Below the pieces are notes generated by a model. The model did not search any database, was not told where the DNA came from, and saw only the letters and a program-made list of their open reading frames with translations. Below, piece by piece: positions 2,638-13,687 of a stretch of DNA of 25,849 bases. The stretch spans positions 1-25,849 of the IMG/VR virus record IMGVR_UViG_3300025697_000130; one strand, given 5' to 3'. The stretch comes from a virus. Each line of letters starts with the position of its first letter. Within the stretch, counting starts at the first letter, position 1. Position numbers and translations under genes: made by a program.

Positions 2638-2805
2638 TAGAATCAAATATATTGTATTTAGATTTTTTTTTAGCTAGCTTTGAATAAGACTTTCTTTCTC
2701 CTATGTGAATACACTACCCTTTCAGTGTAGGATCTGCCGTACTGATCTCCTCGGTACGGCATTTCTTTAGAATCACGATACTTAGAATCTTGATTCTTTA
2801 GAATC
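2633..2805. repeat. TTCTTTAGAATC, three exact copies around the terminators
   Basis: The 12-mer TTCTTTAGAATC occurs at 2633-2644, 2763-2774 and 2794-2805. A shorter relative, TTAGAATC, is at 2782-2789. The last full copy overlaps the terminase stop codon and is itself part of a small palindrome (GATTC TTTA GAATC, 2792-2805). Two copies directly follow the terminator stems. Confidence 0.6.
2735..2768 (+). terminator. Second hairpin with T-rich tail in the convergent gap
   Basis: A perfect 8-bp stem, TGCCGTAC (2735-2742) with GTACGGCA (2754-2761), is followed by TTTCTTT. It acts best on the rightward strand as a back-up terminator. A smaller stem, TACACT (2710-2715) with AGTGTA (2724-2729), lies just before it. 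No equally clear terminator for the leftward transcript was found between 2573 and 2797. Confidence 0.55.
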
Positions 2806-4150
2806 CACGATTAAAAGTATTATTCATCGTAGGCTGATTTCCATATCTAGCATCATGACGAAGCTTCTCGAGCTCAGCTGCCGTTATTCCATCAGATGTT
2901 TTATGTAGAGAGATGCACATGTACCGCATTGCGTCTGCAGCGTGGCTATATTTGTCATGTAGCGGACGATCTCTATAAGTCTGTAACTTATCATTATACT
3001 CTTGACGATAGTTCTCTAGAGCGCGAATTAATCCCTTGCACTTTTCTTCATCGATCCATATTTTAGGGAGAGAAGATCTTACGGCTTCGATTCCGTCCAT
3101 GAATGATTTACTATCTGCGGTGTCAAACTTGATTCCAAGTTGTCTAGCTTTCTCGATTCTAGAAATACCGGTACCAAGTTCTGCGACTGCGATGTCAAAT
3201 GGTGCTATATGCACTCCATAGTTATAATCTTTAGAGTCAAGATACTTAGCGTAATGTTCAAGGCCTTCTTTAGTGTTCTCGTAGTAGTCAATAATACGTA
3301 CTACAGCACCTATTGTCTGGAAGAAGATTATACTTGTACTATCGGTCATACCTAAATCCCAGGCTGTGTGAACTTTAAACTGTGGTTCCCAAGGGACTAC
3401 ACCGAGCTGATTGCTAAGACGCATTTTATCTAAATACTTACAGTAGTAACTTCCCTCAACTCCGGCATCGAACGACACATAATATTCCTGTTCCACAAGA
3501 TCTTTAGACATGAGGCCATCACGAATTTCTTTTTCTATCTCTTCTGGGTCAATGTGATGTGTTTCGTTAAGACCAAGTTTACATGTCCACCAGTCTGGTG
3601 AATGTGATGCAACTTGATAGAGATCATAAAAATGGTTTCTTCCCCTAGGGGTACTTTGAAAGATGGCCCAGCCTTTATTTGCAGCAAGTATAGGAGAAAT
3701 TAATGATGCTATTCTAGGGTTTTGAAGTGCGTACTCGGAATATACAACTCCCCTAGGGTTAGTACCAACAATTCGATCTGGGTTATCTGATCCGATGATC
3801 TGAATAATCGAGCCATTAATGAGATTTATTCTCAATTCTTGGCTGTTCATATTCTGAACCATTTCTTTGGGAATGTAGTCTAGGAAGCGTCTTCCAGAAA
3901 TCGTGACACTGTTCCATAGGATCTTCTTACCTTGGGCATACGTTGGATATATGACGTAATATACGCCTGGGTTTTCGATTGCTTCTCTAATAACGATGTT
4001 CCAGGTACATAGATCTTTACCGGCTCGACGGCACATAACGATTACGAGACGTTTGAACTTGTCTTTAAAGAATGCTTTAAAAATGGGTATTTGATAATCT
4101 CGTGGTTTAAATTTATTGAGGTGAACTTCGACCTCAATAGGCTTTGTCAT
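2798..4150 (-). CDS. terL: Terminase large subunit (packaging ATPase and nuclease)
   Basis: A 450-aa DNA-packaging motor subunit that would dock on the portal and cut concatemeric DNA. The ATPase half has a Walker A-like CRRAGKD (residues 40-46), a Walker B-like GVVYSEY (134-140, Glu139) and a coupling motif FQSTPRG (164-170). The RNase H-like nuclease half has AWDLGMTD (Asp265), HIAPFD (Asp319) and the HDKYSHAADAM block (Asp399, Asp406). The ATG at 4150 overlaps the stop of the upstream ERF gene (TAATG), which favours it over a TTG four codons earlier. It is unusual that the gene ends a leftward recombination operon and faces the tail genes, more than 12 kb from the portal. Asp replaces the usual Ser/Thr of Walker A. 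Confidence 0.95.
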   Translation of the reverse strand: MTKPIEVEVHLNKFKPRDYQIPIFKAFFKDKFKRLVIVMCRRAGKDLCTWNIVIREAIENPGVYYVIYPTYAQGKKILWNSVTISGRRFLDYIPKEMVQNMNSQELRINLINGSIIQIIGSDNPDRIVGTNPRGVVYSEYALQNPRIASLISPILAANKGWAIFQSTPRGRNHFYDLYQVASHSPDWWTCKLGLNETHHIDPEEIEKEIRDGLMSKDLVEQEYYVSFDAGVEGSYYCKYLDKMRLSNQLGVVPWEPQFKVHTAWDLGMTDSTSIIFFQTIGAVVRIIDYYENTKEGLEHYAKYLDSKDYNYGVHIAPFDIAVAELGTGISRIEKARQLGIKFDTADSKSFMDGIEAVRSSLPKIWIDEEKCKGLIRALENYRQEYNDKLQTYRDRPLHDKYSHAADAMRYMCISLHKTSDGITAAELEKLRHDARYGNQPTMNNTFNRGF

Positions 4151-4941
4151 TACTCTAACCAATCATTGTCACTGACAATTTTCTTGCCAGTCCGTCCCTC
4201 TCTAAGTTGTATGATTTTAAGAGCTTGTTCTTTAGAACTTCGGTATTTACTTTTTGGCATGTCTGCAAAAGATTCAATGCTAAGATTTTCTAGCAGATTT
4301 TCAGCAAGATCTGGGTAGTTGCTAAGAATGTATTGAAGTTCTTCTAGCTCAGTTTTGTTTATAAGCTTAAATGACTCTTCTTTTGCCTTGTAACGAGTGT
4401 TTATGCCAGTAGCCTTAGCTTTCTCTATTCGGATCTGACGCATGTCTTTTTCGCCATCGTCGTCGTCGAGATCATCTTGAATAGTAAGGTTTAAGATATT
4501 CATGAAAGAGTTACGTTTTTTGGCTTTCATGTGTGAATTGATAGTTTGGATATCGTTTTTTGAGGGAACAATTCTAGTACGAGTTTCTATAAACTGTGCT
4601 GAACTGTGTAAGAGCTTGGTTGAGAGTATGACTTTTTCGTCTTCAAGCATTTCTTGAAATATTACGGACAGACCGTTTTCTTCTAGTGGGGCCCTGACAG
4701 CGTGAGCCATCTGATCCAGATCGGCATATTGGCGAAACATCGAGAAATTATTGTCTCTGTTAGTAGCAATAACGGGAAATTTGCCTTGTGCCTTGGACAG
4801 GGCCTCACATAGAAGATCAATCTTTTCAGATTGATATTTGTCAACGTACTTTAATTTTAGGCGTTCTTCTACACGCTTATTAATGAATGCTTCGAGCTCT
4901 TCGAATTCCTTCAAACGACCGACGAAATCATTAATCTCCAT
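4150..4941 (-). CDS. erf: ERF-family single-strand annealing protein
   Basis: A 263-aa protein with the layout of ERF recombinases, which anneal complementary single strands during phage recombination. Characteristic blocks are EALSKAQGKFPVI (residues 46-58), YADLDQM with APLEENGLSV (72-93) and the TKLLHSS strand (108-114). An acidic DDLDDDDGE stretch ends the domain near 163. The N-terminus is a charged helix. The C-terminal 100 residues are charged and probably carry oligomer or partner contacts. The start is preceded by GGGAGA. It overlaps terL by one base and follows a second, divergent ERF-like gene. The usual function is recombination or concatemer formation after infection; here that is inferred from family and context. 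Confidence 0.8.
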   Translation of the reverse strand: MEINDFVGRLKEFEELEAFINKRVEERLKLKYVDKYQSEKIDLLCEALSKAQGKFPVIATNRDNNFSMFRQYADLDQMAHAVRAPLEENGLSVIFQEMLEDEKVILSTKLLHSSAQFIETRTRIVPSKNDIQTINSHMKAKKRNSFMNILNLTIQDDLDDDDGEKDMRQIRIEKAKATGINTRYKAKEESFKLINKTELEELQYILSNYPDLAENLLENLSIESFADMPKSKYRSSKEQALKIIQLREGRTGKKIVSDNDWLE

Positions 4942-6889: not shown

Positions 6890-7168
6890 TTATATATCAA
6901 ATTGTTTAACGTAAGCTAACTTCCATGTGACTACTGGCGCGCCTCTGTAAAGGTCAAGATTAACGCTTTCAAGCTCTGGAATGTCCTTGTACTGGATAGA
7001 ACCCAAACGTTCGTTAACGGTGTAGGTGTATCCATTCGCAGAGAATGTTTTGTTATCAACAAGGCCTTTAAGTTCTAGCTCTAGCTTTTTACGTTCTTGA
7101 TTTAAAAATGTCATCTTTTCTTGAAGTAACAACAACTCGGCTGCCCTTAAAGTAAATGTGTTTTCCAT
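6890..7168 (-). CDS. Small protein, coiled coil plus conserved C-terminal module
   Basis: A 92-aa protein. Residues 8-40 are a Leu/Lys/Glu-rich coiled coil. Residues 45-92 are a beta-type module with GYTYTVNERLGSIQYKDIPE, then LDLYRGAPVVTWKL. The GSIxYKxIPEL...YRG...WKL pattern recurs, from memory, in small proteins near phage recombination genes, but the function is not known. A run of seven Gs in the mRNA (7176-7182 on this strand) lies just upstream of the start. Confidence 0.65.
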   Translation of the reverse strand: MENTFTLRAAELLLLQEKMTFLNQERKKLELELKGLVDNKTFSANGYTYTVNERLGSIQYKDIPELESVNLDLYRGAPVVTWKLAYVKQFDI

Positions 7169-7193
7169 TTCAACGCCCCCCCAGGCTTAATAT

Positions 7194-7403
7194 TTAATTA
7201 CTTTTTTCTCTAGCATAATGCTCGCGTTCTAGACGAGCAAAATACTCTTTTCGTTGTTTGTCTTGTTCCTCAAACATAGCGTCTAGTTGGGCTATTTCGC
7301 GGTCAGTTTTTCTATCGAGTATCAAGTTATAAATAACTCCAACCACAATTATAAAACATAAAAAAATCAATCCATAAATATTTAATACACTAAGTTTATA
7401 CAT
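7194..7403 (-). CDS. Small membrane protein with charged helical tail
   Basis: A 69-aa protein. Residues 8-28 form one hydrophobic span (IYGLIFLCFIIVVGVIYNLI). A highly charged helix of alternating Arg/Lys and Glu follows to the end. The Lys/Arg next to the span suggest the tail is cytoplasmic. The layout also fits an inner-membrane spanin, but no lysis partner or endolysin is nearby, so this is left open. GAGAA precedes the start. Confidence 0.6.
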   Translation of the reverse strand: MYKLSVLNIYGLIFLCFIIVVGVIYNLILDRKTDREIAQLDAMFEEQDKQRKEYFARLEREHYAREKSN

Positions 7404-7428
7404 TTTATTCTCTTTTCTTTTTAATTAA

Positions 7429-7466
7429 CCTCCCCTGGTCTACCCGGTCAAGGGCCCTCGGGGAGG
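7429..7466. other. Strong GC hairpin without T-run
   Basis: CCTCCCC (7429-7435) pairs with GGGGAGG (7460-7466), and the loop is itself GC-rich (CCCGG, GGGCCC). Neither strand shows a T-run afterwards, so a classical terminator is unlikely. In the leftward mRNA it lies between the 27-codon gene and the membrane protein gene. It could be an RNA stability, processing or pausing element. Confidence 0.5.
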
Positions 7467-7478
7467 AATATCAATAAC

Positions 7479-7508
7479 TCTTCCAGGAACAAACAATAAC
7501 CTGGAAGA
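7479..7508. other. Second perfect hairpin in the same gap
   Basis: A 9-bp perfect inverted repeat: TCTTCCAGG (7479-7487) and CCTGGAAGA (7500-7508) with a 12-base loop. It sits 12 bases from the previous hairpin and again lacks a T-run on either strand. The pair fills most of the 121-base gap between 7404 and 7524. Confidence 0.55.
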
Positions 7509-7524
7509 CTTTACGAAAGATCTT

Positions 7525-7608
7525 TTATTCTGTTAAGAAAGCTGTATATGCGTCCATGAATGCATCTATCTGTTCAAATAGTTCTTTTGGTAATACTTGT
7601 TTTTTCAT
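7525..7608 (-). CDS. Very small protein (27 aa), translationally coupled
   Basis: MKKQVLPKELFEQIDAFMDA then seven more residues. It starts three bases after the stop of the upstream gene (TAAGACATG) and looks like one amphipathic acidic helix. Its coupling position and sensible composition support a real small gene, but no homologue is known to me. Strong hairpins follow it. Confidence 0.45.
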   Translation of the reverse strand: MKKQVLPKELFEQIDAFMDAYTAFLTE

Positions 7609-7611
7609 GTC

Positions 7612-8079
7612 TTAGTTCTCTGTGGTTTTTATTTTTAGTGGTTCTGTGGGAAATCGTTTAGTAATATCGATATCATCTAGGTATGCTTTAGCCACGAAGA
7701 AAAGCGCCCTAGGTTCTATCGTGTTGCTATATCCAAAGTATTCAATAACAGATGCCTCTATGTTATCGTTATAGTACGTAGATTCTATATTTATGATGTC
7801 TTCAAGTATGCATATAAAGGTATGTATGAGCTTAGAGACAGCAGCGTCATCTTTCATATCTACATTCTTAATCAGTTTAGATTGTCTTGCAGCAATATTG
7901 AATGTGCTTTCAGTCTCGATATCACCCATACAGGAGAAGATGCTAGTACCGGTGTCGAGAGTTAACTGTACGTCTTCGTCTTCTTTATTGCTTCTACAAA
8001 GTGTGCCTAGCGTTTCGAAGTCTGGTTTTGCAGTATATTTTAAGAACATTGTAAATGCTTCGAGTAATAATTTTTTCAT
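7612..8079 (-). CDS. Hypothetical protein
   Basis: A 155-aa protein starting MKKLLLEAFTMFLKYTAK. The ATG at 8079 has AGGGACG just upstream and lies 7 bases past the previous stop; an earlier in-frame ATG at 8109 lies inside the upstream gene and is less likely. The protein is mostly helical with several acidic patches (SNKEDEDVQL) and an IHTFICILEDI helix. No signal or membrane span is convincing. No family is recognised. Confidence 0.65.
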   Translation of the reverse strand: MKKLLLEAFTMFLKYTAKPDFETLGTLCRSNKEDEDVQLTLDTGTSIFSCMGDIETESTFNIAARQSKLIKNVDMKDDAAVSKLIHTFICILEDIINIESTYYNDNIEASVIEYFGYSNTIEPRALFFVAKAYLDDIDITKRFPTEPLKIKTTEN

Positions 8080-8086
8080 ATCGTCC

Positions 8087-8629
8087 CTATCTTTTTGCAT
8101 TATATGCATTAGCTCTTTTATTATATTCGTCTGAAAGTTTAAGGAATTCGCTTAATTTTTGTTTGTAGATTTTATCCCGTTCTTTAACAACAGGGCCAGC
8201 TTTGGCTGTTGCATCAAGTATATCCTTAACACTGCCGCCTGGTAGTTTAGCTATAATAACGTCGGTTTCATCTGAGTAGTTTTCAATACGAATTTTCATT
8301 CTTCTGATTTTAGTTAGTAATTTTTTTAGTGATTTATATTCTTCTGATACTGGTTGAGCTGGCGAAGAGTTCTTAACTACAGATTCATTATGTTTATCCA
8401 TTAACTCATTGTATATTTCAACGCGTTTTTCATAAGCAAATTTTCTAGCTTTGAACATTTCTAAAAACTCAGCATGTTCTGATTCAGATCGCTTCTCTAC
8501 TGGCTTGTCGCCGATTATGACGTCCATACCTGTTGGAGAATGTAAAGATCCAGTAAATTGTAATGATTTAAGTTCTTTGCGTTCTTTTCTTAGATACTTT
8601 GCTTCTATTTTTAATTCTTTAAATGTCAT
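8087..8629 (-). CDS. Coiled-coil protein of unknown role
   Basis: A 180-aa, Lys/Glu-rich protein. Residues 1-25 and 50-85 are helical, 95-120 carry a basic coiled coil (YKSLKKLLTKIRRMKIRI) and 145-180 form another helix (KERDKIYKQKLSEFLKL). Between them, TGMDVIIGDKPVEK and the VIIAKLPGG segment look like short loops or strands. AAGGAAATACC precedes the ATG. Unknown function, possibly DNA- or partner-binding. Confidence 0.65.
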   Translation of the reverse strand: MTFKELKIEAKYLRKERKELKSLQFTGSLHSPTGMDVIIGDKPVEKRSESEHAEFLEMFKARKFAYEKRVEIYNELMDKHNESVVKNSSPAQPVSEEYKSLKKLLTKIRRMKIRIENYSDETDVIIAKLPGGSVKDILDATAKAGPVVKERDKIYKQKLSEFLKLSDEYNKRANAYNAKR

Positions 8630-8638
8630 GGTATTTCC

Positions 8639-9037
8639 TTAATGTAATCGTGAATGTGGTTGAGGGTCTGAGTATTTGTACATGATGTCATCAAATTCAA
8701 GAACATTAAGTTCTTTAAAAGATTTTATACTGTAGTCTGAAGTGATTTCGCAACATACATCATCATATGAAGATCCTTCATAGAAATTGCATAGCATTTC
8801 TTCAATTTCTTTAACCATTTCAGGAGTAATTAAGAAGATCTTATACTTTTCAGCATCTAGTATTCTTAAATTATGTTTACAGTTTTCATAATCAGCATTA
8901 AATGCAGTTATTTGATACTTATAGTCAGATATTCGTTCTTCAAGATTGCGTATATTTAAATACCTAGCTCGAACTGATTTAACATGTTCTTGCATGCACT
9001 CAAACCAAAGTGTTTTTTTCATTTCTTTTGAGATCAT
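8639..9037 (-). CDS. Hypothetical protein, first gene of the original leftward operon
   Basis: A 132-aa protein starting MISKEMKKTLWFECMQEHV. The start at 9037 follows GGGGAATATT; a longer reading frame upstream runs through the promoter and is rejected. The N-terminal 70 residues are a coiled-coil helix, and the C-terminus has acidic and Cys-rich stretches (SSYDDVCCEITSDY). It is driven by promoter copy A (9083-9111). Function unknown. Confidence 0.65.
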   Translation of the reverse strand: MISKEMKKTLWFECMQEHVKSVRARYLNIRNLEERISDYKYQITAFNADYENCKHNLRILDAEKYKIFLITPEMVKEIEEMLCNFYEGSSYDDVCCEITSDYSIKSFKELNVLEFDDIMYKYSDPQPHSRLH

Positions 9038-9045
9038 AATATTCC

Positions 9046-9108
9046 CCATAAAATAAGACTTTATACTGCTACTAACTATATTATTATACATTACATAAGT
9101 GTGAATGT
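9046..9108. repeat. 63-bp direct repeat, copy A (promoter and leader)
   Basis: Matches 9689-9751 with only two differences, the first 44 bases being identical. It carries the -10 box and spacer of promoter A plus the untranslated leader. The two copies lie exactly 643 bp apart and bracket the INT_rpt-type gene. Confidence 0.9.
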
Positions 9109-9111
9109 AAA
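9083..9111 (-). promoter_or_regulatory. Leftward sigma-70-type promoter A
   Basis: On the minus strand: TTTACA at 9111-9106, a 17-base spacer and a perfect TATAAT at 9088-9083. It points at the gene starting at 9037. The -10 box contains the stop codon of the upstream INT_rpt gene, so the promoter overlaps coding sequence. Confidence 0.8.
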
Positions 9112-9680
9112 ATGGGTCGAGATAGATGTTTTTTATATCCAAGCCAATCAGGAAGACTAATCCACCCATCATTTTTATAATATGTGCTAGGAGTACTTGG
9201 TATACACGATGGTCTTTTTGTATTGTTCCATTTAGACCATTCTTTTTGACCGACTAGGCTTTGTTTATGCATAAACTTGCGAGCTTTTTTAAATGGAAGA
9301 AATGGGGATCTTTTATAGCCAAGCCACAATTCTAAGCCACTCCAGCCTTTGTCTTTATAAAAAACATTAGGATTAGAAGGAATAAATTTAGGCCTTTTGC
9401 TGTTTTTCCATTTATCCCATTCTTTTCTGTTATTTAAATTTTGCTTATGCATAAATTTTGTAGCTTCTTCGAAGCTTAACAATTGAAACCGTTTATATCC
9501 CAACCAATCTTCTAATCCATTCCACCCATTATCTTTATAAACTCTAAGTGGAGTAGAAGGAATATATGTAGGTCTTTTTGTTTTACTCCATTGCATCCAT
9601 TCTTCTTGGCTTCTTAAATTTTGCTTATGCATAAATTCACGAGCTTCTTTAAACGGAAGGAAGTTTGTATTTTTTGCCAT
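9084..9680 (-). CDS. Protein of three INT_rpt-type (LGYK) repeats
   Basis: A 198-aa protein made of three repeats of exactly 60 residues (180 bp at DNA level). Each runs from FLPFKEAREFMHKQ through a W-x-x-W and KRPxxIPSxP to GWxxLxDWLGYK. This is the pattern of the 'phage-integrase repeat unit' (INT_rpt) seen in some integrases and stand-alone proteins. No integrase catalytic domain is present. The basic, Trp-rich repeats suggest nucleic-acid binding, which is inference. The ATG at 9680 occupies the same position relative to promoter B as the downstream gene's start does to promoter A; an ATG at 9692 is also possible. The last 16 residues are translated from the region containing promoter A. 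Confidence 0.75.
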   Translation of the reverse strand: MAKNTNFLPFKEAREFMHKQNLRSQEEWMQWSKTKRPTYIPSTPLRVYKDNGWNGLEDWLGYKRFQLLSFEEATKFMHKQNLNNRKEWDKWKNSKRPKFIPSNPNVFYKDKGWSGLELWLGYKRSPFLPFKKARKFMHKQSLVGQKEWSKWNNTKRPSCIPSTPSTYYKNDGWISLPDWLGYKKHLSRPILHSHLCNV

Positions 9681-9688
9681 ATATTTAA

Positions 9689-9751
9689 CCATAAAATAAG
9701 ACTTTATACTGCTACTAACTATATTATTATACGTTACATAAGTGTGTATGT
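9689..9751. repeat. 63-bp direct repeat, copy B (promoter and leader)
   Basis: Second copy of the repeat at 9046-9108, differing at two positions. It lies upstream of the INT_rpt-type gene. Together the copies look like the ends of an inserted or duplicated promoter-gene cassette. Confidence 0.9.
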
Positions 9752-9754
9752 CAA
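9726..9754 (-). promoter_or_regulatory. Leftward promoter B, perfect sigma-70 consensus
   Basis: On the minus strand: TTGACA at 9754-9749, a spacer of exactly 17 bases and TATAAT at 9731-9726. Both hexamers match the consensus completely. It should drive the INT_rpt gene and, by read-through, the leftward operon. Confidence 0.9.
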
Positions 9755-9862: not shown

Positions 9863-9949
9863 ATGAATCACCCTCTACCTTTTACCATTTATCAAAACCC
9901 AAAGGTTATAACACCAAAGTTTATAACGCCAAAGGCATTTGATGAATAA
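9863..9949 (+). CDS. Possible 28-aa leader peptide over the repeats
   Basis: An ATG at 9863 opens a short frame that translates the 15-bp repeats as PKVIT-PKFIT-PKAFD and stops at 9947-9949, overlapping the start of the replication gene by 8 bases. No good ribosome site precedes it. It may be a coupling leader or may be a by-product of the repeats. Confidence 0.25.
   Translation: MNHPLPFTIYQNPKVITPKFITPKAFDE
9899..9943 (+). repeat. Tandem 15-bp repeats, possible iterons
   Basis: CCAAAGGTTATAACA, CCAAAGTTTATAACG and a partial third copy, CCAAAGGCATTTGAT, follow each other head to tail and run straight into the replication gene's start. Such short tandem repeats beside a winged-helix replication gene are typical of initiator-binding iterons or autoregulatory operators. 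Nothing was tested. Confidence 0.55.
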
Positions 9950-11072
9950 AGCATACAACATCCCTATCTCAAGTCAAGAAGAATTATTAAATATATTTTT
10001 AAGAAAAAGACAAACTGCACATATCTGGTTTTACGACCCGTCTCCAAGCATCGATTTATATAAGAAGCCCAAGAAATACATTGCCAGATTGTCAACTGCC
10101 TCTCAAAGGATACTCAACGAGCTGATTCGTTTAAGCAAGTTTCATCGCGCATTGTATCCATCACAATCTTTCATTGGAAGACAACTTGGATACACTCGTG
10201 AGTATGTTAATAAACAGATCAAGATACTTGAGAAGATGGGACTCGTATTTAGTAACTATCGACACATGAATACCAGTATCTATCGACTGGCTAAATTGTT
10301 CACCACGAAACGTATCAAAAAGAAATTAGGCACTCTTCTACCAGCCCTGCTAATCGGGGCTTTCAGCTTGTTCACACAATATAAGATAATATCTTCTCCT
10401 ATCCCCTCTTTATGTAATATAGAAAGCTACTCTTATCTTACTAAAGACACGCATGCGCGTGCACACTCGTGTGCAAGGCAAGACCACCCAAAAAGTAAAA
10501 CCAACGAGGTAATAAGAAAGACAAATCTAATGACAATTCCGTATGACCAACAAGCCACCGTTGACGCAATTAAACAAATTAAGTCACTTAAACTTACAAG
10601 AGCAGGCAAGATCTACCTTTCCAGATACAATTCCCATGCTATAATCGATACAGACAGGAGGATAAGAGCTAAAAAAGGGGGGATTGTTGACCCATTCGCT
10701 TATTTTGAAGCATCCTGTAATCGTATATGCAAAGATTTAAATATGGGACTCGATAACTCATTGCTCGAGAAAGCGTATCTTTCCGAGGCAATTAGCTCCA
10801 GCGATCCCATGCTCGAGGAGAATAAGATTTTTACGGAAAGTTATTACGATAGACCTGACGCCGGCGCCCGCGCTATCTATGTATCACCAGCAGGGCCTCA
10901 ATACCAAGCGCTGCTAGACGAACGCGAAAAATGTATATCAATGCTCAATAGCCCGTTCAACGAAGCTCACGCCATGATATGCTCAGAAGAATCTTACTAT
11001 AAATGGGCTAAGAAGAAGTTTGATGAAGTTGAACTAAAAATAGAGAACTTTAAAGATGCAACGAATAGTTAA
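9942..11072 (+). CDS. Winged-helix replication-type protein (candidate initiator)
   Basis: A 376-aa protein starting MNKAYNIPISSQEEL. AAAGGC lies 6 bases before the ATG; an upstream TTG is less likely. Residues about 50-115 form a helix-turn-helix or winged-helix domain (ASQRILNELIRLSKFHR, YPSQSFIGRQLGYTREYVNK, IKILEKMGLVFSNYRHMNT), as in phage and plasmid initiators. Residues 120-190 are an odd linker with a hydrophobic stretch (LLPALLIGAFSLFTQY) and a His/Arg/Cys-rich THARAHSCARQ segment encoded by GC palindromes. The C-terminal half is helical and charged. Iteron-like repeats precede it and rusA overlaps its end. It could instead be a transcription regulator. Confidence 0.6.
   Translation: MNKAYNIPISSQEELLNIFLRKRQTAHIWFYDPSPSIDLYKKPKKYIARLSTASQRILNELIRLSKFHRALYPSQSFIGRQLGYTREYVNKQIKILEKMGLVFSNYRHMNTSIYRLAKLFTTKRIKKKLGTLLPALLIGAFSLFTQYKIISSPIPSLCNIESYSYLTKDTHARAHSCARQDHPKSKTNEVIRKTNLMTIPYDQQATVDAIKQIKSLKLTRAGKIYLSRYNSHAIIDTDRRIRAKKGGIVDPFAYFEASCNRICKDLNMGLDNSLLEKAYLSEAISSSDPMLEENKIFTESYYDRPDAGARAIYVSPAGPQYQALLDEREKCISMLNSPFNEAHAMICSEESYYKWAKKKFDEVELKIENFKDATNS
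10448..10474. repeat. Back-to-back GC palindromes inside the replication gene
   Basis: CACGC-ATGC-GCGTG (10448-10461) is followed at once by GCACAC-TC-GTGTGC (10461-10474). They follow an AT-rich stretch (about 10380-10440) and encode the THARAHSCARQ part of the protein linker. This resembles origins that lie inside initiator genes, as in lambda O. Confidence 0.5.
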
Positions 11073-11505
11073 TATCGCCATACCCGGCAAACCAATCCCA
11101 CTTAAACGACCCAGGTTCGGTAAAACACACGTCTACGATTCTCAAGCAGATCTTAAGGAAGACCTTTACTGGGAAATCCGTCAGCAAATCCAGCGACTAC
11201 CATCAACTTACGACGAATTCACAAACCCCCTCGTCTATTCCACCTTTAAAGGGTTTGTAGAAATCCAGTACACGTTTTTCATGCCAATTCCTAAAAGCAA
11301 AAGCAAAGTAAAGAGAGAAGCTTTACTAAATACACCTCATAAGTGTAAACCTGATACCGACAATCTAATTAAGCTATACAACGACGTCTGCGTAGCGCTA
11401 CTATATCATGATGATGCACAGATTTATAAACTAAGCGCAACGAAATTATACTCAGATAATCCACGTACCGAGATGGTCATAACTTACGGAGAATACCGTG
11501 TCTGA
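11056..11505 (+). CDS. rusA: RusA-family Holliday junction resolvase
   Basis: A 149-aa endonuclease of the RusA family, which cuts four-way DNA junctions as a dimer with a divalent metal. The N-terminus has the IPGKPIPLKRPRFG strand. The catalytic block is KPDTDNLIKLYNDV (residues 98-111, Asp100 and Asp102), then LLYHDDAQIYKL (115-126, Asp119/Asp120) and a conserved Lys130 in TKLYS. Length fits the family. The start at 11056 lies inside the end of the replication gene (17-base overlap) after AGAG, and its end overlaps the next gene by 8 bases. With the ERF protein it points to recombination-dependent processing of replicated DNA. Confidence 0.9.
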   Translation: MQRIVNIAIPGKPIPLKRPRFGKTHVYDSQADLKEDLYWEIRQQIQRLPSTYDEFTNPLVYSTFKGFVEIQYTFFMPIPKSKSKVKREALLNTPHKCKPDTDNLIKLYNDVCVALLYHDDAQIYKLSATKLYSDNPRTEMVITYGEYRV

Positions 11506-13070: not shown

Positions 13071-13146
13071 GCTGGCGTAGCTCAGTTGGTAGAGCAGTTG
13101 ATTTGTAATCAACAGGTCGCGGGTTCGAATCCAGTCGCCAGCTCCA
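13071..13146 (+). tRNA. tRNA-Thr (anticodon TGT), copy 1
   Basis: A 76-base cloverleaf with a perfect 7-bp acceptor stem (GCTGGCG with CGCCAGC), a D-arm GCTC/GAGC, an anticodon stem GTTGA/TCAAC with loop TTTGTAA (anticodon TGT, Thr ACA), a T-loop TTCGAAT and an encoded CCA. The T-stem has one mismatch (GCGGG against CCAGT, position 51-63) and one wobble. ACA codons are common in the phage virion genes. It begins one base after a stop codon, so it has no promoter of its own. Confidence 0.92.
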
Positions 13147-13610: not shown

Positions 13611-13611
13611 T

Positions 13612-13687
13612 GCTGGCGTAGCTCAGTTGGTAGAGCAGTTGATTTGTAATCAACAGGTCGCGGGTTCGATCCCCGCTAGTCCCGCCA
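13612..13687 (+). tRNA. tRNA-Thr (TGT) copy 2, chimeric with mismatched acceptor stem
   Basis: Bases 1-58 are identical to copy 1, including the D-arm and the TGT anticodon arm. The 3' end differs: the T-stem is perfect (GCGGG with CCCGC) but the acceptor strand is TAGTCCC-G-CCA, which gives only one Watson-Crick pair and two wobbles with GCTGGCG. It would fit a tRNA beginning GGGACTA. The gene is therefore a fusion of two tRNAs and is probably not a normal tRNA. It again begins one base after a stop codon. Confidence 0.75.

Follow-up and report, generated by a model that had tools for sequence, protein, structure and literature searches.

It has long been asked how phages can acquire orphan genes and still keep their essential operons intact, and the locus described here bears on that question. 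The window, meaning the whole stretch of DNA that was analysed, comprises 25,849 nucleotides (positions 1 to 25,849 of the IMG/VR virus record IMGVR_UViG_3300025697_000130) from an uncultured phage with a P22-like portal and a Pelagibacter-podovirus-like TerL. At the head of its leftward operon, one gene lies between two nearly identical promoter regions, an arrangement that an initial annotation had read as a whole gene inserted or duplicated together with its promoter. We asked what is repeated and how it came to be doubled. Our analysis suggests that the repeat is the main leftward (early-type) promoter of the phage with its leader and start, and that it was probably doubled by the addition of a gene through one illegitimate join. 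The features concerned are as follows.

9678-9754, minus strand: PL_A, promoter-leader-start copy A (TTGACA-17-TATAAT, leader, ATG at 9692 or 9680)
9084-9692, minus strand: INT_rpt-like gene, 202 aa, three repeat units of about 60 aa, probably 3'-truncated
9112-9131, minus strand: probable join of INT_rpt fragment and resident promoter, placed from the repeat register and the alignment
9035-9111, minus strand: PL_B, promoter-leader-start copy B (TTTACA-17-TATAAT, GGGG-bearing leader, ATG at 9049 or 9037)
8639-9037, minus strand: g8639, first gene behind PL_B, 132 aa from ATG 9037, relatives not found
7194-8629, minus strand: three more lineage-specific leftward genes (8629-8087, 8109-7612 and 7403-7194)
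6890-7186, minus strand: g6890 with a remnant of the ancestral leader, GCCTGGGGGGGC, a leader that directly follows PL in L009 and L024
4150-5484, minus strand: two ERF-like single-strand annealing proteins (4941-4150 and 5484-4957; Pfam ERF, PHROG 2324)
11056-11505, plus strand: RusA-type Holliday junction resolvase (Pfam RusA, E 3e-21)

Results

A recount confirmed the direct repeat as first annotated: 9046-9108 and 9689-9751 are 63 bp long, agree at 61 of 63 positions (96.8%, two mismatches) and lie 643 bp apart, the longest exact run being 44 bp. Searched as a pattern with at most three mismatches, the repeat matched both sites, and shuffled sequence gave 0 matches (zero expected). The repeated unit is a promoter-leader-start module: a repeat finder extended the register to 77 nt (9035-9111 and 9678-9754, 90% alike), reaching from the -35 hexamer as far as the start codon, with likeness at chance level upstream of the one and downstream of the other. 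On the minus strand, TTGACA-17-TATAAT begins at 9754 (12 of 12 consensus positions) and TTTACA-17-TATAAT at 9111 (11 of 12), each with a perfect -10 box. A scan of the first 20 kb gave 45 promoter-like sites, among which these two leftward sigma-70 sites, PL_A and PL_B, rank first and second, and the annotation of two near-perfect promoters stands. It had the hexamers and spacers right, but the -35 hexamers reach 3 bp past the 63-bp repeat in which it had placed them; the 66 bp that include both complete -35 hexamers carry three mismatches, one of them within a -35 box. From sequence and conservation, both sites would be expected to act as promoters. Copy A has no Shine-Dalgarno-like run, and the leader of copy B has one, GGGG. 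A leader hairpin or attenuator was rejected, the predicted leader RNA fold being no better than that of shuffled sequences (z 0.65 and 1.21).

An assembly artefact is unlikely because a second public contig, IMGVR_UViG_3300031227_000554, has the same arrangement: it is 100% identical over 14,045 bp, both repeat copies included. A short contig from sample 3300005918 is also identical around TerL. When viral contigs were searched for the promoter, only the identical contig matched, and searches among them for leaders of the window and L017 types returned only that contig, or nothing.

The protein encoded between the promoters matched PF14882 with E 8e-5 and 23.2 bits, under the Pfam gathering cut-off of 26.5. 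We therefore call it only INT_rpt-like, whereas a relative in the related phage L040 passes with 31.1 bits. The L040 protein, the only INT_rpt relative among the related phages fetched, is 571 aa long; it contains five repeat units and, at its C terminus, an HTH_17 domain, and the units in the window are 36-39% identical to its repeats. The L040 gene belongs to this same operon, but lies downstream of g6890. The gene in the window was said to lie exactly between the repeat copies, with its stop codon in the downstream -10 box. The stop is indeed there (TAA, 9086-9084, in the -10 box of copy B), but the start at ATG 9692 falls inside the upstream copy; the alternative, ATG 9680, is at the end of the 77-nt register. 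The protein ends after its third unit, at about 9132, and roughly the final 13 codons consist mainly of promoter DNA, the -35 box of copy B beginning at 9111. Since the L040 relative has 571 aa and a C-terminal HTH, the gene in the window is probably a 3'-truncated copy joined to the resident promoter. Codons drawn from promoter DNA and a stop in the -10 box are what a truncating join just before a promoter would leave. Truncation is not certain, as some INT_rpt-like matches, found on plasmids of Vibrio and Shewanella, extend over about 197 codons, and a short three-unit form may therefore be natural. No terminator was found on the minus strand between 9084 and 9111; the only terminator-like match near the cassette is on the plus strand, inside the INT_rpt gene.

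What the repeats do is suggested by an uncultured phage, LR745208, in which the same repeats stand C-terminal to a region matching HNH and endonuclease VII families, so that DNA binding is their likely activity. A search of solved structures gave no meaningful match, a single-sequence AlphaFold model (mean pLDDT 41) was not used, and a search of genome contigs for the repeat units confirmed none. The LR745208 protein and the naming of PF14882 after integrases would also fit a mobile-element gene, with DNA-binding repeats derived from a homing endonuclease, that inserted itself and duplicated the promoter as a by-product. We consider this very improbable: the protein in the window consists of repeats only, with neither a nuclease nor an integrase domain found, homing does not itself produce a promoter duplication, and in the related contigs L023 and L007 repeats of this kind surround unrelated genes.

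A related TerL was found in 30 other contigs (36-75% identity), and the nearest relatives reach only about 70-75% in this protein. Among relatives whose TerL is 69-75% identical, one promoter of this type occupies the equivalent place. About a dozen relatives have a leftward promoter there, before the g6890 homologue or one gene earlier. Each has a single copy, and none of the relatives fetched has two. INT_rpt is absent from that place, and 20 records from the TerL search, checked for INT_rpt and g8639, gave no match to either. In L009 and L024 the promoter is followed by a GC-rich leader (GCCCGGGGGGGC...) and then g6890, with nothing in between; a search with this leader found the known relatives and one chance match, L120. 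In the window, the leader remnant GCCTGGGGGGGC before g6890 at 7186 lies 1.9 kb from PL_B, and five lineage-specific genes separate it from the upstream promoter. Of these five, only INT_rpt has a homologue at E<=0.01 in about 110 related loci, namely the one in L040, and among named phages no relatives of g8639 or of the 8629-8087 gene were found. These comparisons support the first suggestion of a gene added with its promoter at the operon head; what is repeated, though, is the entire promoter-leader-start module, and the gene is probably truncated. Tandem duplication of a promoter-gene unit was rejected, since g8639, behind the second promoter, is unrelated to INT_rpt.

L023 reads as an independent parallel. 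Here an unrelated 107-aa gene lies between PL and g6890 with leader sequence on both its sides (37 nt, 89%), a different part of the leader having been copied than in the window. The related viruses suggest that new genes were repeatedly added at the operon head by copying of promoter or leader.

The promoter type itself is conserved. A GTTA..AGTA-like element lies just downstream of the -10 box in several relatives; as the pattern GTT(A/G)..A it occurs in 6 of 13 cases against 0.45 expected (0 of 20,000 shuffles), a statistic that is optimistic in that the pattern was picked after the sequences had been viewed. L017 shares GTTAGTARCAGTATAA and the ribosome site GGGG-ATATT-ATG with the window. 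The first 16 nt of the leader, common to the window and L017, the perfect -10 boxes, a whole leader identical in both copies and an arrangement unchanged in the second record would all agree with a pair of promoters that is a standing feature, selected for boosting or staging the leftward operon, whose likeness comes from selection or gene conversion and not from a recent insertion. We think this unlikely. Leader stretches that are not conserved in L017 are identical between the copies as well, which points to recent copying; a second copy occurs in no fetched relative; and a stop of the upstream gene within the -10 box is what an accidental join would give.

Repeats at gene starts are not confined to this phage. 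The TerL relatives contain 37 short direct-repeat pairs, of which 13 put start codons in register before different proteins, counting pairs with a Shine-Dalgarno-preceded start codon in both copies (1.2 expected with randomly transplanted segments). The 13 come from five contigs and are concentrated in L013, with seven, and L007, so that they are not independent; the window pair is not among them because copy A has no Shine-Dalgarno-like run. L007 has three GGGAGATAGAAG-ATGGAAGAAGAAA copies (3347-3380, 3727-3753 and 4251-4282) at the starts of three unrelated leftward genes. In L013, several CAACCTGCCNGAGGAGACCAAGTGA copies between 5487 and 7850 stand at unrelated rightward gene starts and resemble the SAS elements of mycobacteriophages. 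L081, a GC-rich phage, has a 59-bp perfect direct repeat at 9317 and 9900, 583 bp apart, whose two copies run up to the start codons of two different small genes.

Such start regions before unrelated genes, together with ACATAAGT-like words in the spacers of several PL promoters, raise the thought that the repeat is a start-associated regulatory signal comparable to SAS/ESAS, through which a phage protein or RNA, by binding there, would control a number of early genes. This is quite improbable in our judgement: the window has two copies only, each with a complete sigma-70 promoter, and the leader RNA fold is not unusual, as noted above.

Several other features of the window were recorded. TerL (2798-4162) lies at the end of the leftward operon, adjoining ERF. 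In relatives it belongs to the rightward operon, with g11498 on one side and the portal gene on the other; it seems to have been moved and inverted in this phage. A strong hairpin (7395-7480, -23.8 kcal/mol, z -2.6) precedes the 7403-7194 gene of the leftward operon. Two tRNA-Thr(TGT) genes (13071-13146 and 13611-13683, 541 bp apart, differing by one mismatch and one gap in an alignment of 66 bases) enclose two small ORFs, a second cassette-like duplication. Tandem words of about 16 bp (CCAAAGgTTATAACaCCAAAGtTTATAACgCCAAAGG) at 9895-9940, just before a replication-initiator-like gene (9939-11072), are possible iterons of an origin.

Discussion

We favour the addition of a gene at a resident promoter. 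As donor we envisage a molecule in which this promoter stood before INT_rpt, whether from a relative or from a second copy of the region. One illegitimate crossover between this PL-INT_rpt molecule and a PL-g8639 molecule, a few bases upstream of the resident promoter, would give the order PL_A, truncated INT_rpt, PL_B, rest of operon. PL_A would drive the INT_rpt fragment and read onward, and PL_B would keep the older genes under their own promoter, for which reason the insertion may not have disrupted them. The edges of the repeat argue for this join, falling as they do at the -35 box and the ATG, both functional boundaries, outside which the sequences are unrelated. Against it, neither a donor molecule nor a close relative without the 643 bp was found.

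Enzymes of the ERF and RusA types act on short homologies. Since the phage has genes for RusA and for two ERF-like annealing proteins, and the repeats share a 44-bp exact run, loss through the repeat is plausible: these proteins could delete or exchange the gene via that match. The clean deletion by homologous recombination foreseen in the initial annotation is plausible on the same grounds, but a record lacking the 643 bp did not turn up, and the sole other record with the locus keeps both copies unchanged.

Three known systems bear comparison. A phage moron is an accessory gene that brings its own promoter to a site between resident genes. INT_rpt, with its own promoter-like site and its absence from the 20 TerL relatives, resembles one; it differs in that the added promoter copies the resident operon promoter and in that the gene lacks a terminator and stops within the promoter that follows. 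The closest known idea is that of the PeSL (promoter early stem-loop) cassettes of T4-type phages, for which the original work is said to be that of Arbiol in 2010 and Comeau in 2014. In the passages that describe them (PMC4503421) or cite them (PMC4177764), near-identical early promoters lie between accessory genes of a plastic early region and are thought to permit recombinational shuffling. The window likewise repeats between accessory genes a unit that is promoter-like by sequence and putatively early. However, it has a single pair that ends at the start codon and no conserved stem-loop (terminator), and the phage is a small one with a P22-like portal, not a T4-type myovirus. The SAS of Cluster K mycobacteriophages, an element resembling a ribosome site, is 13 bp long, has no promoter and is present in 11-19 copies, and SAS/ESAS are repeated at the translation starts of unrelated non-structural genes (PMC3203893). 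The start-region repeats of L007, L013 and L023 are strongly similar to these in placement, whereas the repeat in the window is a promoter-leader unit of 63-77 bp in two copies only, not a short non-palindromic repeat that recurs 3-7 bp ahead of many start codons. The window differs from both PeSL and SAS.

More tentatively, and with considerable doubt, the operon head may be a standing gene-capture site in this group of phages with P22-like portals, where genes would be added by copying of promoter, leader or start, expressed, and removable by ERF and RusA. The related genomes display a before state, PL-leader-g6890, and two after states, one with the promoter duplicated (the window) and one with the leader duplicated (L023). 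A captured gene that was probably cut short where it was joined is the kind of scar to be expected. Collectively, the before state and the two after states suggest a simple rule that can be tested, namely that genes enter at a copied expression signal.
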